63,203 nt of DNA from Okeania sp. SIO2C9. Its GTDB lineage: Bacteria > Cyanobacteriota > Cyanobacteriia > Cyanobacteriales > Microcoleaceae. The stretch spans positions 5,710 to 68,912 of the forward strand of contig NZ_JAAHGO010000026.1 of the NCBI RefSeq assembly GCF_010672455.1. The letters are read 5' to 3'. Shown here piece by piece: positions 40,944 through 44,525 of this stretch; the first letter of the stretch is position 1, and every line of letters starts with the position of its first letter. Under the pieces are notes generated by a model that searched no databases, was not told where the DNA came from, and was given only the letters and a program-made list of their open reading frames with translations. The translations under genes and the position numbers were made by a program.

Positions 40944-42677
40944 ATGATACAGTCTGGAAAAATCCTGAGACAACGCTACAAAATAATAGACACTCTAGGA
41001 AGTGGAGGTTTTGGAGATACCTACCTAGCTCAAGACTTAGACTTACCAAAAAAACCCAAATGTGTAGTCAAACATCTATCACCCAAAACCTCAGACCCCG
41101 CAGTTTTGCCCATTGCCCAAAAATTGTTTGATAGAGAAGCAGAAGCACTATACGAATTAGGCAAAGACTCAGACCAAATACCAAAACTATTTGCTCACTT
41201 CCAGGAAGGAACAGAATTTTACCTAGTACAAGAATATATAGAAGGGCAAGATATAAGTAAAGAACTTACCCGAGGAAAAAAATTAAGCGAGTCTTACACC
41301 ATTGCCTTACTCAAAGGAATATTATCAGCATTAGCAGTAGCTCATAAAAATAATATAATTCACCGAGACATCAAACCACAAAACTTGATGCGTCGTAAGT
41401 CAGACAACAAAATAGTATTGATAGACTTTGGTGCCGTAAAAGAAATAAACGTATTAACCACAGCAAACCAACCAGGGAAAACCACCTTAACCGTAGCAGT
41501 AGGAACACCAGGATATATGCCAAGTGAACAGGCGATCGGTAAACCAAAACTGAGTAGCGATATTTATGCAGTAGGAATGGTAGGAATAAAAGCACTCACA
41601 GGAAAAGACCCCCACAATTTACCCACAGACACAAAGACAGGAAATATTATCTGGCGAAATGAAGCACAAGTAACTAACCATCTGGCAAATATATTAGACA
41701 GGATGGTACATGAATATTTTCCACAGCGTTATGAAAATTCCACAGAAGTATTAGAAGCATTAGGTTTGACAACTTCACCACAACCAACACCCACACCCAC
41801 ACCTATACCAGTAACAAAACCAGCAAAAATAGTATTAGCATCTACCTCTAATGCAAATATTTCCATTCAAAAATTTAAGACTGTGACAGTAAATACCAGG
41901 GGAGAAATAATCAGTCGCAGTCCAGGTCAAGCAGAAGTAATGACAGAAAACTTCGATAATGGAGTCACCCTAGAAATGGTAAAAATTCCCACAGGTAGAT
42001 TTCTTATGGGGTCTCCAGAAACAGAAACAGGGAGAGAAAATAATGAAAGTCCGCAACATTATGTAGATGTGCCAGAATTTTTCATGGGAAAGTATCCAGT
42101 CACTCAAGCACAATGGCAAGCAATTATGGGAAATAATCCTTCTAGGTTTAAAGGTGTAAGGCGTCCTGTAGAAAATGTAAGTTGGAACAACGCCACAGAA
42201 TATTGTCAGAAACTCTCTCAAATAACAGGTAAAAAATATAGTTTACCCAGTGAGAGTCAGTGGGAATATGCTTGTCGAGCTCGAACAACAACACCATTTT
42301 ATTTTGGCAAAACTATAACGTCTGAGCTAGCTAACTATCGTGGTACTTTTACTTATGCTGATGAACCGAAAGGAAAATATCGTCAAGAAACAACAGATGT
42401 AGGAATTTTTCCACCTAATGCTTTTGGTTTGTACGATATGCATGGTAATGTCTGGGAATTGTGTGCTGATGATTGGCACAATAATTATAATGGTGCACCT
42501 AAAGATGGAAGTGCTTGGTTAGATGAAAATGAGAATCGTTCTGCGCTGCGTGGCGGTTCCTGGCTTTACAATCCTAATGACTGCCGTTCTGCGATTCGCG
42601 ACTTCAACTTTAGGCGCGACAAGCACTTCGACATTATTGGTTTTCGTGTAGTATGCGATGGCGGGAGAACTCTGTAG
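40944..42677 (+). CDS. Ser/Thr kinase fused to a formylglycine-generating-enzyme/C-type-lectin domain; probable DGR target
   Basis: 577 residues. Residues 10-275 are a Hanks-type kinase: glycine loop LGSGGFGDTY, K43 in VVK, catalytic HRDIKPQN (D142), DFG (D161) and GTPGYMPSEQAIGK. A Pro/Thr linker (PQPTPTPTPIPVTKP) follows, then at ~325-577 an FGE-sulfatase/SUMF1-like domain: VKIPTGRFLMGSPETE, FFMGKYPVTQAQWQAIMGNN, LPSESQWEYACRARTTTPFY, NAFGLYDMHGNVWELCADDW. The C terminus, LRGGSW ... CRSAIRDFN ... GFRVVCDG, has the C-type-lectin fold used as a variable ligand-binding surface in cyanobacterial DGR targets, and its variable codons are AAC/AAT-derived. A kinase whose lectin domain is diversified could sense changing ligands (inference). 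The ATG follows a CTGATAACTGAAAAGTA repeat end without a clear ribosome binding site. Confidence 0.92.
   Translation: MIQSGKILRQRYKIIDTLGSGGFGDTYLAQDLDLPKKPKCVVKHLSPKTSDPAVLPIAQKLFDREAEALYELGKDSDQIPKLFAHFQEGTEFYLVQEYIEGQDISKELTRGKKLSESYTIALLKGILSALAVAHKNNIIHRDIKPQNLMRRKSDNKIVLIDFGAVKEINVLTTANQPGKTTLTVAVGTPGYMPSEQAIGKPKLSSDIYAVGMVGIKALTGKDPHNLPTDTKTGNIIWRNEAQVTNHLANILDRMVHEYFPQRYENSTEVLEALGLTTSPQPTPTPTPIPVTKPAKIVLASTSNANISIQKFKTVTVNTRGEIISRSPGQAEVMTENFDNGVTLEMVKIPTGRFLMGSPETETGRENNESPQHYVDVPEFFMGKYPVTQAQWQAIMGNNPSRFKGVRRPVENVSWNNATEYCQKLSQITGKKYSLPSESQWEYACRARTTTPFYFGKTITSELANYRGTFTYADEPKGKYRQETTDVGIFPPNAFGLYDMHGNVWELCADDWHNNYNGAPKDGSAWLDENENRSALRGGSWLYNPNDCRSAIRDFNFRRDKHFDIIGFRVVCDGGRTL
42546..42656 (+). 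other. Putative DGR variable region (VR) of the kinase-FGE gene
   Basis: Between the invariant codons for RGGSW, CRSA, RRD and GFRVVC, the variable positions are CTT TAC, GAC, ATT, GAC TTC AAC TTT, AAG CAC TTC GAC ATT. All but one end in C or T and differ mainly in the first two bases, as expected if AAC/AAT codons of a template repeat were mutated at adenines. The block is GC-richer than its surroundings and sits at the extreme 3' end of the gene. No template repeat or reverse transcriptase was found in this window. Confidence 0.65.
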
Positions 42678-42810: not shown

Positions 42811-44525
42811 CATTCTGTGAAGCACCAAAAAAATCAGCAGGAGATTGCCCTTGCATCGCCAAAAAAATCATGGTAGTATGTAATTATTGGGTGTTGCTCG
42901 TACCTACGCATGACTTTTTATTCAACGCAAAAACAGCATTTTAGAAGTAAGCATATATAACGACTCAAAAGCGTACGCCAACAATAACATCAGAAGCCAA
43001 AAATCATTCTGTGAAGCACCAAAAGAAAAGATTTCTCCCATAGAGACTTTGATAAATAAACTCACAGAGCGATCGCTACCATCACAAACCAATAACTCAT
43101 TCTGTGAAGCACCAAAAAAATAGGCAGGATATTCCCCTTGCGTCGGAAAAAAAATCATAGTAGTATGTAATTATTGGGGGTTGCTCGTACCTACGCATGA
43201 CTTTTTATTCAACGCAAAAACAGCATTTTAGAAGTAAGTACTATATACAGACTCAAAAGCGTACGCCTACAATACATCAGGATAGTCCTGCATAGTAATG
43301 GTATACAAGAAACAAGGGATGGTTGGCACGGGAGCAAGATGCTCCCACTGCCGTAGGTCGTAACAAAAATAATGCAATGCACCACCATTACAATCCACCA
43401 CCAACATTAGAAAGAAAATCATTCTGTGAAGCACCTGCAAAATATTTCTTCCATAGAGACTTTGCTCAATAAACTCACACAGCGATCGCGACCATCACAA
43501 ACCAATTAATCATTCTGTGAAGCACCAAAAATATTTGCAGGATATTCCCCTTGCATCCCCAAAAAAATCATGGTAGTATGTAATTATCGGGGGTTGCTCG
43601 TACCTACGCATGACTTTTTATTCAACGCAAAAACAGCATTTTAGAAGTAAGTACTATATAGAGACTCAAAAGCGATCGCCAACATTAGAAAGAAAATCAT
43701 TCTGTGAAGCACCAAAAATATTTCTCCCATAGAGACTTTAATAAATAAACTTATAGAGCGATCGCTCACAAACCAATTAATCATTCTGTGAAGCACCAAA
43801 AATATTTGCAGGATATTCCCCTTGCATCCCCAAAAAAATCATAGTAGTATGTAATTATTGGGGGTTGCTCGTACCTACGCATGACTTTTTATTCAACAGC
43901 AAAACAGGGTTTTATCAACTAAGCATATATATAGAGACTCAAAAGCGATCGCCAATAATAAAATCAGAAGCCACAAATCATTCTGTGAAGCACCAAAAGA
44001 AAATATTTCTCCCATAGATACTTTGATAAATAAACTCACAGAGCGATCGCTCACAAACCAATTATTCATTCTATGAAGCACCAAAAAAGTAGGGAGGATG
44101 TTCCCCTTGCATCCCTAAAAAAATCATAGTAGTATGTAATTATTGCGCATTACTCGTACCTAAGCATGACTTTTTATTCAACAAAAAAACAGGATTTTAT
44201 CAACTAAGCATATATATAGAGACTCAAAAGCGATCGCCAATAATAAAATCAGAAGCCAAAATTATTCTGTGAAGCACCAAAAGAAAAGATTTCTCCCTCC
44301 CATAGAGACTTTGATAAATAAACTCACAGAGCGATCGCTACCATCACAAACTAATTACTCATTCTGCGAAGCACCAAAAAAATAAGCAGGAGAATCTCCT
44401 TGCATCGGCAAAAAAATCATAGTAGTATGTAATCATTGGGTGTCACTCGCACCTACGCATGACTTTTTATTCAACACCAAAACAGCATTTTAGAAGTAAG
44501 CATATATAACGACTCAAAAGCGTAC
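42811..44525 (-). repeat. Satellite-like array of ~270-415 bp units (CATTCTGTGAAGCACC boxes)
   Basis: Six units, each marked by TCGTACCTACGCATGACTTT (near 42897, 43182, 43598, 43868, 44153, 44446). Each unit has two CATTCTGTGAAGCACC boxes ~90 and ~190 bp apart, a HIP1 or GCGTACGCC site and GAAGTAAGCATATATA. One unit has an extra ~130-bp insert (about 43280-43405). On the minus strand, several units read MRRYEQPPIITYYYDFFGDA and soon stop: decayed versions of the small frame at 45676-45882. No intact gene within the array. Confidence 0.85.

Follow-up and report, generated by a model that had tools for sequence, protein, structure and literature searches.

Remote variable proteins of cyanobacteria that join a kinase to a C-terminal CLec domain and lie dispersed from the reverse transcriptase (RT) of their DGR have been described by Vallota-Eastman et al. 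(2020; PMC7517822). The available portion of that report also covers all3226 of Nostoc PCC 7120, which has remnant homology between template (TR) and variable region (VR) and no nearby RT, and the plasmid DGRs of Anabaena sp. 90 and Fischerella NIES-4106, so kinase-CLec remote targets, a remnant target lacking an RT in its vicinity and cyanobacterial plasmid DGRs are already known. Autoinhibition or substrate choice was proposed there for the kinase-CLec targets. Trans and template-less DGR loci were reported in Thiohalocapsa PB-PSB1, and the accessible text of that study proposes DGR targets as antigen sensors in conflict systems (PMC10907252). In cultures of Nostoc punctiforme, adenines of DGR targets were reported to mutate at a low level (PMC12691664, available in part), and one survey would overlook remote targets, by its own account in the accessible excerpt (PMC8144416).

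The window analyzed here (the whole stretch of DNA, 63,203 nucleotides from Okeania sp. SIO2C9) carries a gene with the architecture laid out in the available portion of PMC7517822: a Ser/Thr kinase, a C-terminal CLec domain and, close to the 3' end, a VR. An earlier note on this DNA had considered that a kinase with a DGR-varied sensor would be notable; the kinase-CLec remote targets in that report precede it. Remote targets were assigned there to the DGR of their own genome at >50% identity, whereas here the resident templates fail at non-adenine sites, and, unlike in that portion, one VR type without a detectable template extends across five genomes of the genus. In Thiohalocapsa PB-PSB1, as far as the accessible text goes, population variants accompany an intact RT and TR and the variation was measured (PMC10907252), whereas the window VR is known from assemblies alone. 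At the level of titles and abstract openings, we found no report of a genus-wide template-less cohort or of a template change between sister targets.

The DGR of pn2 from Nostoc sp. UHCC 0926, with FGE targets, Avd and an RT, provides a related template, of which 29 of the 32 adenine columns vary in the VRs studied here; its template letters are identical in genome G431. Two pn2 VRs differ from their own template at 13 adenine sites each and at one other base in total. By phmmer, the FGE domain of the window protein matches TvpA of Treponema denticola (PDB 2y3c) and PvdO (5hha) as far as its VR-bearing end. TvpA shares an FGE-type CLec with the window protein (E 2e-20, two stretches reaching the VR end) and, unlike it, has no kinase.

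The variable region of the kinase-FGE gene and its inferred template

The gene (40944..42677, forward strand, as are its parts below) is an open reading frame of 577 aa that combines a Hanks-type Ser/Thr kinase with a C-terminal domain of the FGE/C-type-lectin fold. Pfam places the Pkinase domain at aa 12-247 (40977..41684, E 5.7e-33), with the kinase motifs HRDIKPQN and DFG (as DFGAVK), and the FGE-sulfatase/CLec-fold domain at aa 344-570 (41973..42653, E 1.4e-52). TvpA, which has the same type of domain, is a surface lipoprotein. An AlphaFold prediction of the FGE domain from three sequences had a mean pLDDT of 33 and was unusable. According to Pfam and the VR alignments, the VR occupies the 3' end of this CLec/FGE-domain gene. 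A 5' constant backbone, GGCGGTTCCTGG (42552..42563), precedes a core of 25 codons (42564..42638) recognized by codon pattern and VR comparison. The core is flanked by a 3' constant block, GGTTTTCGTGTAGTATG (42639..42655), and the 3' constant part as a whole, GGTTTTCGTGTAGTATGCGATGGCGGGAG... (42639..42674), ends at the stop codon; by analogy with TRa and TRb, the templates of the resident DGR, it would be the site of the initiation-of-mutagenic-homing (IMH) sequence. Candidate hairpin or cruciform folds just downstream of four VRs, three of them with a known template, were weak (-1.1 to -3.3 kcal/mol, with parameters that are perhaps not those of DNA). Immediately 3' of the gene lies a 141-base direct repeat (94%; 42811-42951 and 43098-43238), and two low-complexity tails, CCCTTTTCTCTTTTCCCC and AAGTCAGAAGTCAGAAG, recur in the 3' flanks of VR genes.

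The core reads CTT TAC AAT CCT AAT GAC TGC CGT TCT GCG ATT CGC GAC in its first half and TTC AAC TTT AGG CGC GAC AAG CAC TTC GAC ATT ATT in its second. Codons ending in C or T make up 22 of the 25, compared with 43.5% of the 540 preceding codons (binomial p = 5e-6), which bears out the earlier reading that nearly all variable codons are NNC or NNT. The codon list given at that time had the pattern right but lacked AAG and the initial CTT, both with a third base off the inferred AAC. The top 25-codon stretch among the preceding 540 codons has 19 C/T-ending codons. Of 9937 such stretches in 26 other open reading frames of the window, 4 come up to 22, and these overlap one another within a single frame. 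Codon bias alone is weak evidence, and the relatives are what make it strong.

Among 13 genes of the genus (78 pairs), the FGE domain 5' of the VR differs by 0.22/0.18/0.39 at codon positions 1/2/3, and the VR core by 0.45/0.35/0.16. The core thus diverges more at positions 1 and 2 than at position 3, contrary to what is usual in coding sequence. This comparison draws on the 18 of 21 places that were read (L081, L085 and L086, the weakest matches, were left unread), minus L002, L076, L090 and L091, with short or broken frames, and L092. L090 (G004:C223, about 30.4 kb) is a VR-like piece whose upstream frame is not FGE, a loose fragment of a target gene. The blocks once described as invariant are indeed constant or nearly so at positions 1 and 2, with variation at certain third positions (CGT 25/31, TCT 21/31).

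A DNA search of the genome located VRs of the same type at C244:61.7 kb, C223:187.7 kb and C223:190.9 kb. Most of their backbone letters are common with the window VR and the differences fall at the variable codons; the C244 gene is interrupted by an in-frame stop. The template of this type, TRw, was never itself observed; it was reconstructed from 31 VRs of other genomes, and the window VR is compared below with this inferred template and with related ones. A column was called A if no base reached 80% and A reached at least 15%, and was otherwise given its commonest base. The approximate TRw reads ...TCCTGG AAC AAC AAT CCT AAT AAC TGC CGT TCT GCG A/T-A/T-T CGC in its 5' half and AAC AAC AAC AAT AGG CGC GAC AAC CAC AAC AAC AAT ATT GGTTTTCG in its 3' half. 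Over the core and the six bases 3' of it, the window VR departs from this TRw at 14 of 32 adenines and 2 of 49 other sites (p = 1.7e-5), the two exceptions being the third bases of CTT (42566) and AAG (42623). The corresponding counts are 14 and 0 for C244, 17 and 1 for C223b, and 19 and 5 for C223a. At least two 3' sub-backbones, GTGTAGTATG and GTATTGTGTG, point to more than one version of TRw, so some non-adenine differences may be differences between templates.

Because the inferred template is partly circular, the test was repeated with columns classed by the Nostoc pn2 template. In 35 VRs (30 family places with loci, of 49 listed, and 5 genus places), 29 of 32 adenine columns vary against 7 of 63 others (p = 1e-14, only a guide since the rows share ancestry). 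When the 14 VRs of the genus were pooled, 233 of 448 adenine cells and 80 of 882 other cells differed from pn2. The window VR itself differs from pn2 at 16 of 33 adenines and 9 of 78 other sites (p = 5e-5), and the latter count marks pn2 as related to, but distinct from, the missing template. The proposal of a DGR-type VR in the kinase-FGE fusion at 42546-42656 is thus confirmed at the level of sequence comparison, with the core at 42564-42638, and its DGR origin survives because the adenine bias holds against both independent and inferred templates. A predicted sensor role would have the variable face bind a ligand that controls the kinase.

The resident DGR and its targets

One of the 40 reverse-transcriptase (RVT_1) matches in the genome resembles DGR RTs, and no other match of a DGR RT in this genome exceeds 33% identity. 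Profile and motif searches delimited a DGR locus at C2:240.2-242.6 kb, composed of RT, Avd, TRa and TRb. The RT is an intact frame of 365 codons (C2:241357-242454) with GLPLGNLTSQ and YVDD motifs, Avd lies 5' of it (C2:241013-241372; NF033474, E 2.8e-40), TRa (C2:240201) and TRb (C2:242483) flank the pair, and the cis target gene has 841 codons. QGG..SP and/or YADD motifs occur in 19 of the 26 loci inspected among the 40 RVT_1 matches; such loci are presumably group II intron-like RTs, in which the genome would be rich.

Between TRa and its own cis VR, 10 of 30 adenines are changed and all 79 other sites agree. TRb matches the VR at C24:330 kb equally well (14 of 30 and 0 of 80, or 0 of 79 with slightly shifted ends) and nearly as well that on C250 (9 of 30 and 2 of 80, or 1 of 79 with slightly shifted ends). 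More than 50 further bases are identical in the TR/VR alignments past the last changed adenine. The genes at C24:330 kb and on C250 are located on other contigs, are related to the window protein and carry Pkinase and FGE domains. Because TRb matches the VRs of these two sisters, trans action of the C2 DGR on sister kinase-FGE genes is well supported by the alignments, and retrohoming itself is presumed. The gene at C24:330 kb (L165; 4-846, 862-2217) has the cleanest trans match to TRb, yet a stop lies between its kinase and FGE parts, so a recent date is probable for the stop or else for the rewriting. A third kinase-FGE gene, on C256, fits TRa and TRb roughly (7 of 80 non-adenine differences each). 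Elsewhere on C24, a frame of 1641 codons (G000:C24 541043-544753; L157, L160, L162, L164) holds four tandem FGE domains, each with a VR-like end that has 16-24 non-adenine differences from TRa and TRb; this array is perhaps a fossil set of DGR targets.

The resident templates do not account for the window VR. TRa differs from it at 23 of 78 non-adenine sites and TRb at 24 of 78, with no significant adenine bias (p 0.07 and 0.09), and the alignment needs a gap of 3-4 bases. No genomic candidate did better, and the expectation of a near-identical template beside a DGR RT failed. The C244 VR is likewise a misfit (p 0.12 and 0.08), and the two C223 VRs show a nominal adenine bias (p 0.005-0.03) yet have 21-29 non-adenine mismatches. 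Writing of the window VR by the C2 DGR is therefore not supported. The suggestion of a DGR elsewhere that acts in trans was right in that the C2 DGR exists and TRb fits two sister kinase-FGE VRs, but it does not extend to the window VR.

Template searches and the fate of the variable region

No fitting template was detected in the strain's own genome by DNA search (28 of 28 candidates scored); a search with the 3' end of TRw gave four matches, every one a VR, and the 5' pattern with one mismatch gave TRa, TRb and a TRb-type VR only. With the VR as query, the genus yielded 21 places, all candidates scored, which were all VR-like and included no template. The family search (61 genomes, with the best 14 candidates scored in many of them) gave at least 49 places, of which 30 were compared; these retain 12-21 of 31 adenines and 36-41 of 41 other sites, so none of them is a template. 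Across 388 cyanobacterial genomes of the class, the 3' pattern with three mismatches had four matches, none with the window's AGGCGCGAC. These differ from the window VR at 9-17 of 76-81 non-adenine sites, and the best is the pn2 template (G431). The 5' pattern had four Nostoc matches in GTDB species genomes, one of them a VR. On plasmids, the nearest template was that of Nostoc UHCC 0926 pn2 (90.4% over 104 bases), and TRw-related templates were also seen in Nostoc draft genomes; a mobile source of TRw is plausible. Template-like stretches beside family RTs were rejected at no more than 79% identity to the inferred TRw. A viral source was rejected as well, with 0 and 0 matches in two exact pattern scans of viral contigs and best places of 71-74% in phage records. 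ORF63L of the Microcystis phage MaMV-DC (L185), annotated 'kinase', has a sequence of FGE type; its final part is similar to the template class seen on the Nostoc plasmid (20 of 33 adenines and 9 of 78 other sites differ), so the module also occurs in phages.

No DGR RT turned up in the other genus genomes, G001-G004, when every candidate was scored (identity up to 36%, best E 1e-25), although they hold TRw-type VRs. In the genus labeled g11, each of the six RT loci with 56% identity or more to a DGR RT is either partial or interrupted by stops. Broken DGR RTs there (G054-G057 and G060; loci among L136-L146) occur with several VR-bearing FGE genes kept, and DGRs apparently decay repeatedly in g11 while their targets persist.

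Comparisons within the genus bear on when rewriting took place. In three near-identical genes of G002, G003 and G004, the FGE body differs by 5-7%, and in the VR core the differences amount to 40-48% at first, 32-44% at second and 4-12% at third codon positions. By site, their VRs differ at 19-21 of 31 adenines and 1-3 of 41 others, indicating that rewriting of the cohort continued after the genes parted. G004:C778b and G000:C223b differ by 26% at third positions outside the VR, and within it at 1 of 41 non-adenine and 21 of 31 adenine sites; their backbone looks overwritten from a common template, judging from these alignments. Set against G004:C163, its nearest relative, the window gene differs at 14 of 31 adenines, 6 of 41 other sites and 14% of third positions outside the VR. 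Changes in this pair are enriched at adenines, but the non-adenine divergence is close to that of third positions outside the VR, so there is no sign of backbone overwriting since the split.

The window VR is thus probably a genuine remote DGR VR that has been kept but is now orphaned and no longer rewritten. In this scheme, mutagenized cDNA of an AAC/AAT-rich TRw, acting in trans, would have replaced the end of the kinase-FGE gene. Bases copied from template adenines would have been randomized in some 14 AAY codons and at single bases in a few others, which would place the randomized patch in a lectin-fold domain attached to a Ser/Thr kinase. Other cohort genes would have been rewritten after the genes of the genus species split. 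TRw would since have gone from the strain, presumably through loss rather than an assembly gap, leaving the resident C2 DGR with two different templates. The present self-diversification of the kinase sensor that the earlier note had envisaged fails on this assembly, in which no genomic template was found.

The strongest competitor, which we consider rather unlikely, is that a cognate template still writes the window VR from a plasmid or from a gap in the assembly, accompanied or not by an RT of its own and possibly using the resident C2 RT and Avd. The assembly consists of 317 contigs and a plasmid may be absent from it. The nearest templates do lie on plasmids (Nostoc UHCC 0926 pn2, Microcystis FD4, Fischerella NIES-4106 and Anabaena sp. 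90), with an adjoining RT gene on all four and an annotated Avd on three. The two pn2 VRs, with 0 and 1 non-adenine changes of 78 against their own template, fit such a source, and the C2 RT frame is intact and the remote VRs of TRb look fresh. However, no template-like match appeared among the 21 genus places or in the pattern searches of the 388 genomes and the own genome. The window VR has two non-adenine changes, the genome's four cohort VRs have 0-5 of 49, and the cohort member C244 carries an in-frame stop.

It is improbable that the VR is an old relict of an ancestral resident DGR whose templates diverged into TRa and TRb. TRa and TRb have a general plan in common with TRw, and the C2 locus already has two templates. 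Against this reading, they mismatch the window VR at some 30% of non-adenine sites and need a gap of 3-4 bases, whereas 30 TRw-type VRs from three genera (picked by TRw similarity) keep 36-41 of 41 non-adenine core sites, and TRw-like templates adjoin other RTs.

An origin without any retroelement, by positive selection on a duplicated lectin-fold site or by paralogue gene conversion, is very improbable: lectin-fold binding residues often diversify, paralogues are many (20 FGE matches in the genome) and some non-adenine bases do vary (the middle T of ATT is C in 10 of 31), but third positions vary less inside the VR than outside and positions 1 and 2 far more, the adenines of AGG, GAC and CAC differ in 10, 8 and 9 of 31 VRs against 0-4 for other bases, the same pattern occurs with its template present in the same genome, and, as to gene conversion, the longest shared mutated run in the 35 VRs is 5, compared with a mean of 4.8 after column shuffling and 118 of 200 shuffles as long.

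Probable template turnover among sister kinases

Template turnover is the interesting part of these results. In a tree built from FGE bodies after removal of the VR (49 of 54, the five of <190 aa being excluded), the TRb-type pair, C250 and C24:330 kb (97/94), is nested in a clade of TRw type that includes the window gene, with forks at 97/94, 97/80 and 98/89. Labels follow the author's rule, under which 11 bodies with more than 9 non-adenine mismatches are unlabeled and G002:C168 stands at 9. The TRw and pn2 labels are patchy on this tree, and TRw requires 12 changes. TRb probably overwrote VRs that were formerly TRw's, a takeover of two sister kinase-FGE genes; recombination of gene ends may also have produced the TRb-type pair.

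A wider history is possible, though on balance doubtful. A mobile, probably plasmid-borne DGR would have entered this genus and two other genera of the family, rewritten sensor ends and been lost, and later DGRs, such as that of TRb, would have taken over single genes. If true, such hit-and-run rewriting would have left private sensor repertoires in many kinase-FGE and related genes.

Related genes of one genome thus include VRs with a cis template, VRs with a distant template and VRs with none detectable, and related kinases there seem to have changed template. This separates two questions: does a gene carry a VR at all, and is the resident DGR able to write it? Both the turnover of DGR templates and the fate of targets after the loss of a DGR become directly testable.
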